This document shows, piece after piece, positions 20,574 through 42,223 of a stretch of 64,000 bases of DNA. Source of the stretch: Bacteriovoracaceae bacterium (GTDB lineage Bacteria > Bdellovibrionota > Bacteriovoracia > Bacteriovoracales > Bacteriovoracaceae); assembly GCA_023701435.1 (NCBI GenBank), contig JAMPXB010000011.1:1-64000 (forward strand), in the 5' to 3' direction. Below the pieces are notes generated by a model, which saw only the letters and a program-made list of their open reading frames with translations, ran no database searches and was not told the origin of the DNA. Made by a program: the position numbers and the translations under genes. Within the stretch, counting starts at the first letter, position 1. Every line of letters starts with the position of its first letter.

Positions 20574-22292
20574 TTAATGTCCGTTAACTTTAATTTTCCA
20601 GGAAGTGAATGTTCCTGTATCGGCATCAGCTCCATCAATAATTTTGATGGTCCAGTCTCCTGCAGAAGACTCCCCATAGAAAGCATTACTAAGGAGAGTG
20701 AATTCCGAAAGACCAGAATGCTTAATATTGCTGTTAACCAAAAGTAGTTTGCTGGTAGTGCCGGCGGGAGAAACCAATTCGACACCCAGATCACCCACAT
20801 AAGTGTGATTGGTTGAAATTTTTATCTGAACTGATTCTATAATATAATTTACTGCCACATTAAGATTATCAGTCACGCCAGCTGCTGAGTTGTCAGGAAT
20901 CGCTAGGGCCAAAGTGGGCGAGGCGTACCAGGAAGATTCCTGATAAGTGCCGAGGGCAGAAACATAGGTCTGGGCCATCAGCACTGCTTGGTTGGCATTC
21001 ACCCTTCCAAAACCATAGGTATTGGAGAAATCGTAACCAGCATTGTTTCTGACATAGAGATAGTCATAGATATGTCCGGTTGGCACGGATGATAATCCGG
21101 CCGGATGGGCCAGAGCGCCTGTGGAATAGTTAATTTGATCTGCTGTCTCGGCAAGGATGTGTTTAACATCTCGCCAGGTAAGATTAGGATTGGCCTCCAG
21201 CATGAGAGCAATAATTCCTGATACCACCGGAGTAGAAGAGGAAGTGCCATTCATAATGCTGGTGTAATTGCAGTAAGGATTCAATGTTGATGATCCTTTG
21301 TTAAACCCTGTGACAGTACTTGAGGTACCGGAATAACCTGAGCTGCAGGAGCGCAGGTCAGTGGTCAGCATCGCCGGATTTTCTTTGCCGCTCTCACCAC
21401 CTGCAGCTGCGACCCACAGTCCACTTCCAGGAGTGGAGTAGGTGGCTATTTTTCCTTTGGCATTTACTGCTCCGGTTAGCAGCACGTAAGGATGATTATG
21501 TTCTTCACTGGTGTTGGTATTACCCAAAAAGGTTGAATCCTCACCATCAATACAAGCAGAGTTAAATCCAAGGTACTCGTTGCCTGCAGCCTTGACGTAG
21601 AGAGCTCCCTTGCCTGATCTAAGACTGGTCACGCCATACTTATAGGCATCTATGACTTCAGTGGTGGTTGGCTCAAATGAACAACCGGCAAGGCCATAAC
21701 TGTAATTAAAAATATCAAAGTCGCCAGTCATCTGATCCAGTATCTTGGCTTCGTAAGAAGTATCTGAGTCATGAAAACTTCCAACAAATAAAAAGCCTGC
21801 ATAATTGGCGGAAGGGGCCACTCCCCGGGAGCCAATACCATTCCATCCAAGAGCTGCAATCAGTCCAGTGACACCGGTTCCATGGGCCTCTTTCTCAATA
21901 GGACGAGGATCGCCATTTCTCCAATCTGCAGGATCTTCACTGGCATAACTGCGATGGGCTGAACTCAGTTGATTGCCGTTTAAATCGGAGTGATCAATAT
22001 CTATTCCTGTATCTGATATGGCGATGGTGACACCTGCACCCTTAATTCCCAGGTCATGAACTTCTTTGATGTCCATGTCTTCACCCGCCGTGCCGGCAGC
22101 TGAGGAAAATGTTTTTTGTCCGGTGTTCTGCAGATGCCAGGCTTCGCTCGCCAAAGGATCTTCGGCACCTTCCACAGGCGTTTCACTATAATCAGGGTTT
22201 TCTGCTTTTGTTCCGGAAGCACTGGGACCGCATGAAACAAGAAGCAAGGTCGTGAGGCTTAGGGTGAGGGTAGTAAAATAAGAAAACATCAT
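20574..22292 (-). CDS. kexin-like subtilisin (S8) lipoprotein with P domain
   Basis: Lipobox LLLVSC (Cys21). The catalytic triad is complete: Asp94 in AISDTGIDIDHSDL, His137 in KEAHGTGVTGLIA, Ser351 in MNGTSSSTPVVSG, plus oxyanion Asn238 in AAGNE. The C-terminal 115 residues form a P/Homo B domain (YIIESVQIKI, HTYVGDLGVELVSPAGT, AGDWTIKIIDG), as in proprotein convertases. There is no room for a normal propeptide: DPLASEAWHLQNTGQ, typical of the mature start, is at about 45-59. It is followed directly by the 213-residue partner gene. A TATAAT lies upstream on the minus strand at 22318-22323. Confidence 0.9.
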   Translation of the reverse strand: MMFSYFTTLTLSLTTLLLVSCGPSASGTKAENPDYSETPVEGAEDPLASEAWHLQNTGQKTFSSAAGTAGEDMDIKEVHDLGIKGAGVTIAISDTGIDIDHSDLNGNQLSSAHRSYASEDPADWRNGDPRPIEKEAHGTGVTGLIAALGWNGIGSRGVAPSANYAGFLFVGSFHDSDTSYEAKILDQMTGDFDIFNYSYGLAGCSFEPTTTEVIDAYKYGVTSLRSGKGALYVKAAGNEYLGFNSACIDGEDSTFLGNTNTSEEHNHPYVLLTGAVNAKGKIATYSTPGSGLWVAAAGGESGKENPAMLTTDLRSCSSGYSGTSSTVTGFNKGSSTLNPYCNYTSIMNGTSSSTPVVSGIIALMLEANPNLTWRDVKHILAETADQINYSTGALAHPAGLSSVPTGHIYDYLYVRNNAGYDFSNTYGFGRVNANQAVLMAQTYVSALGTYQESSWYASPTLALAIPDNSAAGVTDNLNVAVNYIIESVQIKISTNHTYVGDLGVELVSPAGTTSKLLLVNSNIKHSGLSEFTLLSNAFYGESSAGDWTIKIIDGADADTGTFTSWKIKVNGH

Positions 22293-30684: not shown

Positions 30685-32250
30685 ATGTTCGTCAAGAAGT
30701 TCGAAGCTGATACATTAGAAGAAGCGCTGAAAGCTGTTAAACTTGAGCTGGGCCCTGATGCTATTATTCTAAAAACCATTACCAATAATGGTCTCAAAGG
30801 TGCTTTTAAAAAGAAGCGCATTGAGATCACAGCGGCCATCTCAGAACGAAATTTTGAGAAGAAGGCAAAGGTGGATAAAGTTTTGAATCATGAACAAAAA
30901 GAAGCTTTTTATCAAAAGCCTGCTTCCACAATTAAAGAATCAATTTCTAAATATAACAGCCATGAAAATCAGGCCGGTGGTTATGGAAGTATAGGGCTCA
31001 ATAAAGTCGTCAATACCCTGGCCAAAGGTTCTGCCGGTCTGGCCGATATGACCAATAAGACATCTTCACTTATTAAAAACAGTCTCGATGACTTTTTAAC
31101 TGACGGTGAAGATTCCGGATTTGATATCGATTCAACTGATGACACTCCAGTTCCGCCACGACCGCAAAACCGTGGAAAATATTCTGAGCCGCCTCAAAGA
31201 GAAGCTCAAAGAGTTCGTCCCGAAATCCGTCAGTCCAAGCAGCAGATAATGGAAGATACGGTTGAGGTTACCCGCAATCCACTCCGTGAACCTGCCGCTC
31301 CGGCACCGACCCAAGCCCAGGCTCCCGCCAATTCTCAAGCGGGGATCGTGAGCCGTGAGGCCTATAATGAACTTAAGCAGGAACTGAGAACAACCCAGAA
31401 TAAAATGGAGCTTCTCGAGCAGAAGATTCTGGAACTCTCTCAAAATTATCAATTCAATCAGAAGCACTTAAACGAAGCCAAGGGTATTTTCCAGCTTCGG
31501 ACCACTCTTAAAACATTGGATGTAGATGAAGCACACATTTTGGAGCTCATCAAAAAGGCCAATTATGAGCTTTCCAAAGATGATCTGGAAAATCCGGATG
31601 TAATTTTTGAATTTGCTCTTCAAGAAATGGCGAGTTCTATCAACACAGCTATTCCTCTTTTCGCAAAAATTGAAAATGGTGATTCAGTCATCACGGTTCT
31701 TCTCTCTGAAGCAGCTTCAGGGCAAAGTACGATGGGAACAAAGATTGCCGTCCTGAAAAAAGATGTGGTGCTTATCCAGTATTCTCAGGATGCGCAAAAT
31801 AATGCCTCGACAGATTTTGCTGCCCAGGTGTTTGGAATCAAGGTCGAAAAAGTTCAAAACTTCTCAGAAGTGGTAGGCCTATGTCGAAAGGCGACGGAAG
31901 CCGGCAAATCTGTCCTGGTCGATGTCCGTCTTAACAGCCGTTTTTCAGACGAAACAAAAAAATTCATTGAGACGCTTAAACGTGGTTTCCAGCATGTAGA
32001 AGTTTTATGCACACTTTCTGCGATTCACTCTGAACTTTATAACCGAAAAATAATTGCCCGATACAAGGACATTGTAGACGGTGTTATCATTTCACATGTG
32101 GATCTCTGTATGAACTTTGGAGCTCTCTTCAATGTTCACAAGGCCCACAATAAGCTTCCTCTCAAATTTTTCGGAACAGGACCAGTAGTCCCTGACGATA
32201 TTGAAGGAGCAACTGCTGAAAGGTTGATGTCGGGTCTCTTTCAGTTCTAA
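30685..32250 (+). CDS. flhF: FlhF-family flagellar placement protein with degenerate GTPase site
   Basis: SRP-type protein that normally places flagella at the pole. The N-terminal B domain is clear (MFVKKFEADTLEEALKAVKL, then ELGPDAIILKTITNNG), followed by a long low-complexity, Pro-rich linker and helix (about 60-265), then an NG-like domain (270-521). In that domain the P-loop position reads SEAASGQSTMGTK (341-353) instead of GxTGxGKTT, the DTAGR position reads DVRLNSR (413-419), and TKLD reads SHVD (470-473). The C-terminal VPDDIEGATAERLMSGLF is conserved. The fold is kept but nucleotide binding looks lost. Located between flhA and flhG as usual. Confidence 0.88.
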   Translation: MFVKKFEADTLEEALKAVKLELGPDAIILKTITNNGLKGAFKKKRIEITAAISERNFEKKAKVDKVLNHEQKEAFYQKPASTIKESISKYNSHENQAGGYGSIGLNKVVNTLAKGSAGLADMTNKTSSLIKNSLDDFLTDGEDSGFDIDSTDDTPVPPRPQNRGKYSEPPQREAQRVRPEIRQSKQQIMEDTVEVTRNPLREPAAPAPTQAQAPANSQAGIVSREAYNELKQELRTTQNKMELLEQKILELSQNYQFNQKHLNEAKGIFQLRTTLKTLDVDEAHILELIKKANYELSKDDLENPDVIFEFALQEMASSINTAIPLFAKIENGDSVITVLLSEAASGQSTMGTKIAVLKKDVVLIQYSQDAQNNASTDFAAQVFGIKVEKVQNFSEVVGLCRKATEAGKSVLVDVRLNSRFSDETKKFIETLKRGFQHVEVLCTLSAIHSELYNRKIIARYKDIVDGVIISHVDLCMNFGALFNVHKAHNKLPLKFFGTGPVVPDDIEGATAERLMSGLFQF

Positions 32251-32312
32251 ATTCAAAGCTCTAGTTTTCAAACTACCAGACAGGATGTCAGGTAGAGTGT
32301 TCCAGGAGGGAT

Positions 32313-33191
32313 ATGCACAAGACCAGCGAATGGTTACAGTCTTTTAGTACGAGCAATAACCCACTTAAAAAATCTGAGTTACGCCGTGCCAGTGATTTTG
32401 CCTGTACAAAAGTTTCCATCACAGGTGGAAAGGGCGGAGTAGGCAAGACCTCTATTGCACTTAAAGCAGCACATGAATTGGCATCATCGGGCTATCGTAC
32501 ACTTTTGATCGACTGCGATTCTAATCTTTCCAATACCGCCATTAAACTGGGTCTGCCTCTGGACAACAAATTTGAAAAAATTCTTTCGGGAGAGGCGACA
32601 CTTCATGACTGCCTCATTCAGCGGGGAAATTTTCATCTTTTGCCTGCCTGCAATGGTTCCGTTGAGGTCTTTGAATCAAAATTAAACTTCGATGAAATTA
32701 TTATCGACATCATTTCTTCTCATGAACATGAGTATGACTATATCCTGCTTGATTGCCCAGCCGGAGTAGGTCGGGAAACACTTACCCTGAACGCTTATTG
32801 CGACCACCGTTGGATTGTGGTGACTCCTGACAAGTCATCCATTACCGACTCCTATTCGCTTGTAAAACTGCTCTCAAATCGATTTGGCATTAAAGAGAAT
32901 CATCTGCTGGTGAATATGTACCAGTCGGAAAAGCAGTTTCAAAAAGTAGTTCTTACCTTGAGTGAAACAATCGAGAACTTTCTCGGTGCCAGGACTCATA
33001 TCCTGGGTGGTATCCAGAAGCTGGATGTTTCTGCCGAGGGATTTGATACTTTTTTCCTATCTCAGAACAAAAATGAATTTCAGCGCAACTTCGCTAAACT
33101 TTTATATGGGTTCGCCGAAAAAGCAGGTGGACCACTGAATGTTCCCAACCAGGGCGCACACCAGATGGCCTATGAACAAGATGTTCACTAA
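32313..33191 (+). CDS. flhG: MinD-type ATPase FlhG (FleN/YlxH)
   Basis: Controls flagellar number together with FlhF. The deviant Walker A GGKGGVGKTS at residues 38-47, DCDSN switch (about 70), DCPAG (about 149) and TPDKSSITDSYSL are intact, so ATP binding and dimerisation are expected. The N-terminal 30 residues lack the DQAxxLR motif that in other bacteria stimulates FlhF GTPase. The C-terminus has no long amphipathic helix that I can recognise. CAGGAGG precedes the ATG. Confidence 0.9.
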   Translation: MHKTSEWLQSFSTSNNPLKKSELRRASDFACTKVSITGGKGGVGKTSIALKAAHELASSGYRTLLIDCDSNLSNTAIKLGLPLDNKFEKILSGEATLHDCLIQRGNFHLLPACNGSVEVFESKLNFDEIIIDIISSHEHEYDYILLDCPAGVGRETLTLNAYCDHRWIVVTPDKSSITDSYSLVKLLSNRFGIKENHLLVNMYQSEKQFQKVVLTLSETIENFLGARTHILGGIQKLDVSAEGFDTFFLSQNKNEFQRNFAKLLYGFAEKAGGPLNVPNQGAHQMAYEQDVH

Positions 33192-33216: not shown

Positions 33217-34002
33217 ATGTCATCACTCACGGCCAAACTTAAAAATTTAAAAGACTACCGCTGTACAGTTGATCCGAAAGTAAAAGACGAGATCATTCTT
33301 GAGTACGCGCCGCTGGTCAGATATATCGCCCAAAAAATTTCATCACGTCTGCCGCCAAATATTGAGCTCGATGACATGGTCTCTTGCGGAGTAATTGGTC
33401 TGATGGACGCCATTGAGAAATTTGATCCAACTCGTGACAATAAATTTAAGACATATGCCGAATTCCGTATTCGCGGTGCCATTCTTGATGAACTTCGTTC
33501 ACAAGACTGGGTTCCACGTTCAGTTCGTGAAAAAGCTAAAATTGTAGAGAAGGCTTACGCCAAGCTTGAAAAAGATTTTGGCCGTCCTGCGACTGATGAG
33601 GAGATGTGCGAGCATCTGGCCTGTTCGATGGAAGAGTTCCATGAACTTATCAATAAATCAAAATCAGTATCACTGATGAATATCGATGATGCTACGGCCA
33701 TGAGTAAAGGTGATAAAAAGCTGATGGTGTCGTTAATGGAGACCTCACGCGGGGCCAATCCTCAAACGGCAGTAGGCTATAAGCGTGCCCAGGAAATCAT
33801 CAAGGATGGCATTAAAACGCTTCCAGAAAAGCAGCGTCTGGTTCTCTCCCTCTATTATTTTGAGGACCTTAATCTAAAAGAAATCGGTCAGGTGCTGGAT
33901 GTGACGGAATCCCGGGTTTCTCAGCTTCATACCCAGGCGATTTTAAAATTAAAGGCAAAACTTCGTAATCAATTTGATTCATACGAAGATCTCGCCAGCT
34001 AA
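33217..34002 (+). CDS. fliA: flagellar sigma factor FliA (sigma-28)
   Basis: Directs RNA polymerase to late flagellar and chemotaxis promoters. Region 2 (EYAPLVRYIAQKISSRLPPN, CGVIGLMDAIEKFDP, FKTYAEFRIRGAILDELR), region 3 (about 95-155) and region 4 with a helix-turn-helix (LPEKQRLVLSLYYFEDLNL, LDVTESRVSQLHTQAILKLK) are complete. The length of 261 is typical. Last gene of the operon, followed by a strong terminator. I did not find FliA promoters inside the window. Confidence 0.95.
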   Translation: MSSLTAKLKNLKDYRCTVDPKVKDEIILEYAPLVRYIAQKISSRLPPNIELDDMVSCGVIGLMDAIEKFDPTRDNKFKTYAEFRIRGAILDELRSQDWVPRSVREKAKIVEKAYAKLEKDFGRPATDEEMCEHLACSMEEFHELINKSKSVSLMNIDDATAMSKGDKKLMVSLMETSRGANPQTAVGYKRAQEIIKDGIKTLPEKQRLVLSLYYFEDLNLKEIGQVLDVTESRVSQLHTQAILKLKAKLRNQFDSYEDLAS

Positions 34003-34067: not shown

Positions 34068-34150
34068 CCCTAAGTAGTCTTATCACTTTTCAATCCGTCT
34101 CTTATTGTCAGAAAATTAACTATCGGAATTTACTAAAAAGGGTGACTTCA

Positions 34151-36445
34151 ATGGATTGGAAAAAAACCTTTAATCGCGGACAGTGGGTTATACACGGTAT
34201 CTTTGTCATAGCTGTCGTTTTTGGCGTGGGCTCAACTATCTTTGCCTTACGTTTAAATCATCTACAAAGTACGGAAGAAGAAAGAGGATTAAAGATTAAT
34301 TCTCTCATTCATCATTTCAAAAAAGATATGAGCTTTGAGAAAATTGGCAAGCTGCTCTCCTGGACAGAGCCAGACAAGGCCAATGATAAAATGCGGGATC
34401 TGTCTCAGAAAATTGCTGAAACAGAAGAGCTCCTTGAAATCAAAGCTTCGAAAGATTTAAGTCTGGGCATGAGAACTTTTAATCGGATGATTAATAACAC
34501 TTCAGGCATGTCTGATCCTTCTGATGCTCTCAAGGTATTCAGAACAAAAGTTTCAAGTCTGCAGGACTTTGCCCAGTTAAAAAAGTATTCAACCGTCGTT
34601 GCTATTTCCGGCAAAATGCTGGAACGACTGGAGCTTTTAAATCCTAAGAATGTAGTTAGTTCTATTCAGGTTCGTTACTTGGGATCTGATTTAAATCGAC
34701 TTGAAAAGGTAGTGAATTCATCTACTCTTGGAGAGAATGAGAAAGATGCTCTTAATTCAAGATTCAAATCAATGCAGTCTGAAGTTGAGTTGCTCACTAA
34801 TCTTAATTCTCAATCCAAAGATATCAATGCCCATGTGACCCAGGCCTCGCTGGCTTTGTCTCAATGGCTGATTGATGTAGAAAAGAAAGCTTCTGATCTG
34901 CAAGGAATCCGTTTCCGGAAACAAAATCAGCTGGTCACCATGCTGGCCGGTATGGTGGGGTTTATGGTCATCGCCTGGATGGGGCTGGCCTATCTTTTTC
35001 GCTGGCAGAAAATTAAAATGGGCGAACAGGTGGAGATGGAAGTTAAGGGTGTGATTGAGAAAGGTATCATGGGCGATCAACGCTTTATGATGGACCATTA
35101 TTCTGATCTTACCAGAGACGATATTATCCGGCTGCTTGATGAATTAAAGATCAAACTTAACCTCGGAACGATGTTGCACACAGGTCTCCCGTTTGCCGGA
35201 TGTATGGTTGATACCAATTTCAAACTAACCTGGAATAACCATCTGTTTCTGGAGCAATTCTACTTGAGCGAAGAAGAAGTCCGATCAGATGCTTTTAACT
35301 GGGATTACCTCCGGGATTATCTGAATATTGATGAAGATCCAGTCTATCAGGCATTGGTTAATAAAATTGCCGGCATCTATCCCGTTAAAGTTAAGCAAGA
35401 TGAATACGCACCCGCTCAGCCATATGAAATGTATGTAACTCCAATTAACGTTAACCGTGAAGATCGTGTCATGATTTTCTTCTATCCGCTGGTTTCTGTG
35501 AAAGAGGCGATCAATGAGCAGGTAGGTTTGGCAACTGAGACCATGGGAAGATTTATCGGCCACTGGAACCGGGATACTCTTGATCAGGACCAAATCCGCC
35601 TTTTGGAAAAAGATTTCAAGAACAATGATCTGAAAGATGTTTATGCAGAACTTGTTACTCTCTTTGAAAGAGTTGATGGTGAGAAAAAAGAATGTCTCAG
35701 AACAATCAATGCTCTGGAAAAAGAAAATCAGGCCTATCAGGAAACGATTGGTGAGATGAGAGATATTGAAGTTGAAAAGAAAGAAATCATCCGTAAGGAG
35801 TTTCAGCTTGCGAATGACTTACGTACTTCCTTCTTAGGTTCAGTCGAAAGAGTGGAGTCCTTGATGCATATTAACAAAACGATTCTTCAGCAAAATGATG
35901 ATTTAAAAACTGATGCTCAGAAAATGCAGCAAATAACGATCGAGCTTACCAAAAAGACCAAAGAAACATTGGATATTATGGGGCATCTTGACGGTGTAAA
36001 AACAGATTATAAAAAACTTAAATTCGAGCTTCTGGAAGTTAAGGCAAAACTCATCTCCATTAATAATACTTTATTTGCCCAGTTACCTCCGTTTGATGAA
36101 GCCCAACAAAAACTTGCGACTCGTTATAAGGATGAGCTGGCAAGACTTGATTTCAATGTAACCACTCTTGATAAGAAGCTGTCTCAGCTTGATGTTCTGT
36201 TAGGCAAGCTGCAGATGATGCACGAGAAATCTCCGGTAGAGCAGACTCATTTCAACTTCCTGACTTCTCAGAAGGACCATGAGTTGAAGGACGTTCTCCT
36301 TAAACTTCAAAAAGTACAGGGAGCTGAGGAAGTTAAAATTATCGAGAGTTTTAATAACCTTCACCAATTAATGAAAAAAGATCTTAACAAAGTTCAGGAG
36401 GCCCGTGAAACGGCTTCTGAAACTCTGGAAGCTTTCCTTTCTTAA
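34151..36445 (+). CDS. receptor-like membrane protein with PAS-like and coiled-coil domains
   Basis: About 764 residues. Start at 34151 fits AAAAGGG with correct spacing; an in-frame GTG at 34142 is less likely. Membrane helix near 12-34, a helical periplasmic domain (about 35-255), second membrane helix (about 258-282), a PAS-like domain (about 340-440, GLPFAGCMVDTNFKLTWNNH), then a long helical coiled coil to the end. This is chemoreceptor or histidine-kinase topology, but the conserved MCP hairpin tip and any kinase motif are missing. It follows the flagellar operon, so a role in motility control is possible. The next gene starts right after its stop. Confidence 0.75.
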   Translation: MDWKKTFNRGQWVIHGIFVIAVVFGVGSTIFALRLNHLQSTEEERGLKINSLIHHFKKDMSFEKIGKLLSWTEPDKANDKMRDLSQKIAETEELLEIKASKDLSLGMRTFNRMINNTSGMSDPSDALKVFRTKVSSLQDFAQLKKYSTVVAISGKMLERLELLNPKNVVSSIQVRYLGSDLNRLEKVVNSSTLGENEKDALNSRFKSMQSEVELLTNLNSQSKDINAHVTQASLALSQWLIDVEKKASDLQGIRFRKQNQLVTMLAGMVGFMVIAWMGLAYLFRWQKIKMGEQVEMEVKGVIEKGIMGDQRFMMDHYSDLTRDDIIRLLDELKIKLNLGTMLHTGLPFAGCMVDTNFKLTWNNHLFLEQFYLSEEEVRSDAFNWDYLRDYLNIDEDPVYQALVNKIAGIYPVKVKQDEYAPAQPYEMYVTPINVNREDRVMIFFYPLVSVKEAINEQVGLATETMGRFIGHWNRDTLDQDQIRLLEKDFKNNDLKDVYAELVTLFERVDGEKKECLRTINALEKENQAYQETIGEMRDIEVEKKEIIRKEFQLANDLRTSFLGSVERVESLMHINKTILQQNDDLKTDAQKMQQITIELTKKTKETLDIMGHLDGVKTDYKKLKFELLEVKAKLISINNTLFAQLPPFDEAQQKLATRYKDELARLDFNVTTLDKKLSQLDVLLGKLQMMHEKSPVEQTHFNFLTSQKDHELKDVLLKLQKVQGAEEVKIIESFNNLHQLMKKDLNKVQEARETASETLEAFLS

Positions 36446-40873: not shown

Positions 40874-42223
40874 TTAACGTTTTACAGATTTGGCTTTTTC
40901 CAGAGCGGCCTTCAGATTAATACGTCCACCTGAAACTACCTGATCCTTGAAAGCAGGAACTTTTGTCGCAGTGTCCATCATGATTTTCTTAACTGAGCTT
41001 ACTGAAAGATGAGGGTAGTAACCCATGATCATGGCCGCTACACCCGAAGCGTTCGGAGCTGCCATTGATGTTCCAGAGGCCATAGAATATTTGCCGTTAT
41101 TGATAGTTGAGTAGATGTTTGATCCTGGAGAAGCAACATCCACACCAACTTTACCGACGTTAGAGAATGAAGACATTTTACCATCAGCTTGAGTAGAAGC
41201 GATTACGATCATGTTAGCTGAATCGAATGAAGCAGGAAATTTACGGTTAGTATCAATATCGTGCCAGCTGAAAGGACCAGTTGAATCGTTACCGGCAGAA
41301 ACAACTACCAGAACACCTTTTCTAGCGATGGCATTCATAGTGTCTCTGACAACCATTCCGCCTTCGTTATTTTTCTTACCAAAAGAACAGTTGATAACTG
41401 AAGCACCGTTTTTAGCAGCATAAAGGAAGCCTTCAACGATATCAGAATCAAGCTCATCGGCATCATCAGGAACTACTCTGATGGCCATGATTTTTACGTT
41501 ATTGGCCACACCTGCAATACCAACACCGTTGTTTTGAGTCGCAGCGATCGTTCCAGCTACGTGAGTACCGTGCCAGTGAGAAGCCATTGTATCCATTGTG
41601 GCATTACCTTGAGCATCTCTTACCAGAGGATTGATCCCGTGGATGTCGTCGATATAGCCGTTATTATCATCATCAATTCCGTTTCCTGGAATTTCTTTTT
41701 CATTGCTCCACATGATATCTTTAAGGTCTTCATGATTATGATCAACACCAGTATCAGCTACGGCAACGATGATTTCTTTTGGAGAAGTGGCGGGTAGCAA
41801 ATCGTAAGCACCGATAACATCCATTCCGTTTTTCTGATTGAAGGCCCAAAGTTTTGATGCTGAAGGATCATTGAATGAAGTTGTAAAATCAAAATTCTGA
41901 AGCTGCTTCATAAGAAGGCCGCCTTCATTTAGCACTTCATGCTTAGGCATAGATCTCTTGCCGGCATAAAAATCCTTCTGAACGTATTCAATGCCTTCAG
42001 AACCGGCCAGTGTTGCCTCTAGCTGGTCAGCACTAGTTGTTTTTACCAGGTATAGGCCATCTATGATTTTCTTAGAGCTTTGGATAAGAGGAGACTTAAC
42101 AAGAGATTCACCGGCCTTCATCTTAACGAAGAGGTGATTTGGGTGATATCGGTTATTTTGGGCCTGGGCAGAGCCAACAACGGCCAAAAGACCAATTAAA
42201 ATTCCAGCACTTAGCTTTTTCAT
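40874..42223 (-). CDS. secreted subtilisin-like (S8) serine protease with propeptide
   Basis: Signal peptide (about 1-21), an I9-like propeptide (about 25-85, starting YHPNHLFVKMKAGES), then the catalytic domain with Asp157 (VAVADTGVDHNHEDL), His218 (SHWHGTHVAGTIA), Asn312 (VVVSAGNDS) and Ser386 (MASGTSMAAPNAS). All triad residues are present. A Ca-binding-like loop DDDNNGYIDD sits at about 184-193. No P domain, unlike the other subtilase of this window. Probably exported and active on external or host proteins (inferred). Confidence 0.92.
   Translation of the reverse strand: MKKLSAGILIGLLAVVGSAQAQNNRYHPNHLFVKMKAGESLVKSPLIQSSKKIIDGLYLVKTTSADQLEATLAGSEGIEYVQKDFYAGKRSMPKHEVLNEGGLLMKQLQNFDFTTSFNDPSASKLWAFNQKNGMDVIGAYDLLPATSPKEIIVAVADTGVDHNHEDLKDIMWSNEKEIPGNGIDDDNNGYIDDIHGINPLVRDAQGNATMDTMASHWHGTHVAGTIAATQNNGVGIAGVANNVKIMAIRVVPDDADELDSDIVEGFLYAAKNGASVINCSFGKKNNEGGMVVRDTMNAIARKGVLVVVSAGNDSTGPFSWHDIDTNRKFPASFDSANMIVIASTQADGKMSSFSNVGKVGVDVASPGSNIYSTINNGKYSMASGTSMAAPNASGVAAMIMGYYPHLSVSSVKKIMMDTATKVPAFKDQVVSGGRINLKAALEKAKSVKR

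Follow-up and report, generated by a model that had tools for sequence, protein, structure and literature searches.

FlhF is the third SRP-GTPase, and in current models its GTP cycle, stimulated by FlhG, is the core switch for the place and number of flagella. In S. putrefaciens, the FliG-interaction domain (FID) of FlhF binds FliG, and binding of HubP by the NG domain is GTP-independent (PMC11236974; so stated in PMC12713375); in P. aeruginosa, FliG binding requires GTP-bound FlhF (PMC12713375), and placement needs GTP binding by FlhF in several species (PMC12713375, PMC6092412). For V. alginolyticus FlhF, flagella are abolished by T306A and D439A, K305A, K437A and G380A are partly tolerated, and E440K abolishes function (PMC6092412). 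The FlhF described here has in common with those of S. putrefaciens, V. alginolyticus, P. aeruginosa and B. subtilis its gene order, the FID, the NG fold, a disordered basic linker and a C-terminal VP(D/E)D motif. Unlike these four, it has no P-loop Lys, no motif II, no DTAGR and no TK of the TKxD motif, and its post-P-loop helix is shortened.

The window, a stretch of 64,000 nucleotides, belongs to a Bacteriovoracaceae genome (3.63 Mb, 93.6% complete), which bears out the placement in the Bdellovibrionota that the earlier note had entertained; its named near relatives are Bacteriovoracaceae MAGs, several of which are filed as Bacteriovorax stolpii. It carries the last part of a flagellar operon (fliL, fliM, fliN, fliO, fliP, fliQ, fliR, flhB, flhA, flhF, flhG, fliA; names in part from our own reading of the sequences). 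The flhF orthologue (30685..32250, + strand; 521 aa), a predicted pseudo-GTPase, was identified from its open reading frame, its position in the order flhA-flhF-flhG-fliA and a TIGR03499 match to the B domain. It is followed by flhG (32313..33191, +; 292 aa), a MinD-like ATPase with an intact Walker A recognised by its open reading frame, profile matches and an AlphaFold2 model, and by the adjoining flagellar sigma factor gene fliA (33217..34002, +; TIGR02479 above cut-off). Relatives have the same gene order, with flhF between flhA and flhG-fliA. In a profile search, PF00448 matched three proteins of this 93.6%-complete genome, Ffh, FtsY and the FlhF of the window, leaving no second canonical FlhF. 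On either side of the flagellar region, the opposite strand encodes a subtilisin-like serine protease, identified by sequence reading (20574-22292 and 40874-42223, both −).

The P-loop position of FlhF reads SEAASGQSTMGTK (residues 341-353; 31705..31743, +), a stretch that includes SEAASGQST and has Gln in place of Lys at residue 347. Across 92 aligned orthologues the consensus is S-E-x-x-x-G-Q-[ST]-[ST]-M-x-x-K, and among the sequences covering each site Q347 is invariant (91/91), as is K353 (92/92), with S341 and G346 each retained in 90 of 91; GQ also occurs in three further, more divergent FlhF members of the order. As the 92 sequences include a few near-copies, the invariant Gln is best stated for ~90 orthologues of differing sequence in 44 genera; with this invariance (91/91) the change of motif is not due to chance. 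A functional P-loop elsewhere in the protein is ruled out, since none of the 92 orthologues contains a Walker A pattern at any position. The G3 site (residues 413-419; 31921..31941, +) has DVRLNSR for DTAGRxx, with only the Asp left (D413, kept in 92/92), and at the G4 site (SHVD, residues 470-473; 32092..32103, +) the Asp is likewise the only invariant residue of TKxD (D473, 91/91). Alignment showed motif II to be absent from the FlhF of the order and the post-P-loop helix to be ~5 residues shorter. The broken GTPase site reported in the earlier note, with SEAASGQSTMGTK, DVRLNSR (D413-R419) and SHVD (S470-D473) at the three motif positions, was confirmed.

The preservation of the B domain and C-terminus, also claimed in the earlier note, holds. 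The N-terminal residues 1-44 (30685..30816, +; TIGR03499 match 1-298) are conserved and correspond to the FID as defined in S. putrefaciens FlhF (PMC11236974); 23 of the 44 are identical even in a genus without flagella. The conserved C-terminus, VPDDIEGATAERL, lies at residues 502-514 (32188..32226, +). A motif of the order's own, SAIHSELYN (residues 445-453; 32017..32043, +), has S445, I447, E450, Y452 and N453 each conserved in at least 95% of orthologues.

A long low-complexity linker joins the N-terminal domain to the NG domain (residues 226-521; 31360..32247, +), for which a confident AlphaFold2 model built with 77 orthologues (mean pLDDT 87.9, pTM 0.77) has an SRP/FlhF-type NG fold and a strand-loop-helix at the pseudo P-loop. 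The best PDB match to this model was S. putrefaciens FlhF (8r9r; E 6.6e-15, TM 0.79 on the target); Ffh and FtsY came next, and Ffh-FtsY complexes were among the best matches. In a phmmer comparison of FlhF with PDB sequences only chance hits were returned. The Pfam SRP54 match is limited to profile positions 69-195, in the C-terminal half of the G domain, so that the P-loop part is unmatched; PRK14721 and TIGR03499 give partial matches at the N-terminal FID/B domain, and the score against TIGR03499, the NCBIfam FlhF equivalog, is 54.8 bits, below the cut-off of 174.15 bits. As the protein is FlhF by position and fold, yet fails the sequence definition of a GTPase, it is named here an FlhF-derived pseudo-GTPase. 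Pairwise dN/dS within the genus and to its nearest neighbour genus was 0.02-0.09 in the G domain compared to 0.1-0.2 in the linker, values that are rough because many dS were saturated and that for the linker cover only the pairs in which it was computable. A pseudogene or an assembly error is contradicted by both the conservation and the low dN/dS. The flhF of one relative contains a TGA (L017), which sits in a stretch ending in unread bases. With an SRP-type fold that is kept and conserved and catalytic residues that are replaced, the protein is a pseudo-GTPase whose G domain is under strong purifying selection, and this state is fixed and not one of decay. That the FlhF of the order has lost its GTPase activity is close to certain, and it has probably lost all nucleotide binding too.

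FlhG was described in the earlier note as retaining GGKGGVGKTS and DCPAG with no DQAxxLR, and this description stands. Like FlhG/YlxH/FleN elsewhere, it is a MinD-like ATPase directly 3' of flhF with its deviant Walker A (KGGVGKT) intact. DQAxxLR is absent from all 86 FlhGs of the order; Pseudomonas FleN is also without it (PMC12713375). In place of DQAxxLR, the FlhG of the window has near its N-terminus TSEWLQS (residues 4-10; 32322..32342, +), an instance of a consensus [TA]S[ED]WLxS located ahead of Walker A that emerged from comparison of the 86 proteins. W[LR]x[ST] is present in 77 of these and a near variant (WLxG, WLxA or WLIQ) in eight, with the Trp retained in 85 and the motif absent from one; two deep-branching FlhGs outside the 86 also lack it. 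In the AlphaFold2 model (pTM 0.78), the motif forms a short low-confidence helix (residues 2-9) on a disordered tether, as would be expected of a putative docking peptide, and a further helix (residues 255-272), a candidate for the membrane-targeting helix of FlhG, is predicted in the C-terminal part. By its sequence, then, FlhG is not a case of mere loss of DQAxxLR, as the earlier note had it, but of a different conserved motif standing in its place. In one genome of the same genus as the window (G103, L023:3115-3939), the FlhG Walker A is changed to GSPGSGKT and the WL motif is missing.

A match to the FlhF of the window was found in 119 of 129 genomes of the order. Nine of the ten genomes without a match also had no detectable FlhA, and for at least two of the nine, in which flagellins are present, gaps in the assembly may account for the missing genes; in the remaining genome, the match to FlhA is cut off, probably by the end of a contig. 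When mapped on an FlhA tree constructed by a quick method (61 rows across the Bdellovibrionota), the difference between Lys and Gln required a single change, on a fully supported branch that is the stem of the Bacteriovoracales, compared to three changes for the presence or absence of DQAxxLR in the adjacent FlhGs. Families f27-f29 have both intact P-loops and DQAxxLR. Bdellovibrio and related families (f2-f12; L165-L176) resemble the window in phylum, gene order and an FlhG without DQAxxLR, and DTAGR is already eroded in their FlhF, but GxxxxGK[TS] and most of motif II are kept. Loss of DQAxxLR is therefore wider than P-loop loss and not tied to it, though every P-loop loss falls within lineages without DQAxxLR. 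The proposal in the earlier note that both halves of the GTP cycle were lost together does not survive the unequal number of changes and the GKT of Bdellovibrio-type FlhFs. Families f22-f26 (L178-L181, L205, L207, L208) have fliA directly after flhF with no flhG between them. A second divergent lineage, with short FlhFs of ~350-380 aa, comprises families f13 and f14 (L065-L074, L195-L200); here the P-loop GKT is kept, DTAGR is replaced by a D-[ST]-P-[AS]-type sequence, the C-terminal VPED is lost and FlhG is mostly without an N-terminal extension.

Linkage of flhF to flagellar genes was seen in all sampled loci except those of one genus. In genus g28, represented by three genomes (G066, 98% complete; G068, 94%; G069, 99%), those searched had no match to FlhA, FliG, FliP or flagellin, and for FlhG nothing better than general ParA/MinD-like matches was found. 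All three genomes nevertheless encode an intact FlhF (346-375 aa) in which GQ[ST]S is present along with the FID and the C-terminal motif, and the dN/dS of a g28 pair was 0.053, with dS near saturation. The gene lies in a block consisting of a 169-aa gene, the pseudo-FlhF, FliA and a relative of a 767-aa gene of the window (L121:3435-7834, L122:3526-8070, L124:1210-5742). The 169-aa gene overlaps the start of flhF, is fast-evolving and matched no Pfam family; that it might be a shortened FliM was unsupported by profile comparison. The 767-aa gene (34142..36445, +), with a terminator-like hairpin between it and fliA, encodes an order-specific membrane protein with two predicted transmembrane segments around a long loop, followed by a long cytoplasmic part; its family occurs 3' of fliA in 79 loci, all within the order, and was absent there from every other family sampled. 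FipA offers a comparison only: the 767-aa gene likewise encodes a membrane protein just 3' of the flhF operon, and, unlike FipA, the protein is without DUF2802. A DUF2802 (FipA-like) match was found in a Bdellovibrio-type genome (G138:C1:609541-609741). The persistence of FlhF in a genus without a flagellum, which had escaped the earlier note, suggests that its role is not confined to the flagellum; from this retention we infer at least one partner outside the flagellum, for which the 767-aa membrane protein would be the first candidate.

With the GTP site broken and FlhF conserved, the GTP-independent scaffold put forward in the earlier note is the best reading of these data, and we consider it reasonably probable that this fixed pseudo-GTPase orthologue of the Bacteriovoracales acts as a constitutive adaptor between FliG and a polar partner. 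Given Gln for the P-loop Lys, no motif II or DTAGR, and only the Asp of G4, there should be no cycle of GTP binding, dimerisation and hydrolysis, and known chemistry would make such an FlhF catalytically dead. In the proposed mechanism, the N-terminal FID would hold FliG and start assembly of the C-ring/MS-ring, and the NG domain would dock on a polar or membrane partner, by analogy with the binding of NG to HubP in S. putrefaciens. FlhF would be permanently in the competent state, and flagellum number and release would now be controlled by the ATPase FlhG with its WL motif, through which FlhG may act by binding and not by stimulating GTP hydrolysis. The pseudo-enzyme part of this account is strong, and it is the wiring that we infer. 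A search of nine genomes of the order for known polar partners gave no FimV domain (the HubP C-terminal domain) above cut-off and no FipA domain (DUF2802, PF10975).

Several observations pull in another direction. The GTP requirement for FliG binding in P. aeruginosa counts against an adaptor of this kind, as does the need for GTP binding in flagellar placement in several species, and the conserved S/T348, D413 and D473 weaken the case for it, as they could support weak or unusual nucleotide binding. A remodelled switch, in which the altered pocket still takes up some ligand, guanine nucleotide or other, non-canonically and a slow or hydrolysis-free cycle remains, would account for these residues, for the conserved TG of the C-terminal motif and for the strand-loop-helix kept in the model. 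Motif-order mapping places the retained S/T348 and D473 at Vibrio T306 and D439, which matter more than K305 (PMC6092412), the positions of K305, K437 and G380 being changed. This pattern also speaks for the adaptor, since the positions altered here are those at which Vibrio partly tolerates substitution. The same mapping indicates that the Glu of E440, essential in Vibrio, is not retained, which also weakens the adaptor reading. We nonetheless regard a remodelled switch as unlikely, with an invariant Gln for Lys, the loss of the motif II Asp, the DTAGR Gly and the G4 Lys, and a post-P-loop helix that is ~5 residues shorter. SRP GTPases act as NG-NG dimers, so the pseudo-NG domain might instead pair with FtsY, Ffh or another NTPase and be the regulatory half of the resulting heterodimer; the Ffh-FtsY complexes among the best PDB matches and the retention of FlhF in a genus without flagella would fit, but the linkage of flhF to flagellar genes in nearly all sampled loci makes this quite improbable. 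That FlhF is a relic of little function on its way out, as its low TIGR03499 score might suggest, is hardly credible: its altered residues are invariant, dN/dS is low and almost all flagellated genomes of the order have it.

A precedent for a G-protein fold serving as a scaffold is given by eukaryotic pseudo-GTPases such as the dynein light intermediate chain (PMC4359372), which are unrelated to FlhF in family and role. A literature search, with subscription journals and preprints outside its coverage, returned no report of such an FlhF, and neither Bdellovibrio nor a degenerate FlhF turned up in a word search of a review from 2025 on how FlhF and FlhG evolved (PMC12826062). A bolder and more tentative possibility, on which we place rather less weight than on the adaptor, is that the whole order places its flagellum by a switchless SRP-family pseudo-GTPase regulated by an FlhG whose docking motif is new, and that FlhF has in addition a flagellum-independent polar role, the latter suggested by its survival with fliA and the order-specific membrane protein in the genus without flagella. 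In an order that is naturally without the GTP cycle, the dependence of each FlhF function on GTP can be tested directly, and the surfaces still conserved on its FlhF show what the scaffold must do. The genus without flagella, in turn, provides a route to the partners of FlhF outside the flagellum.
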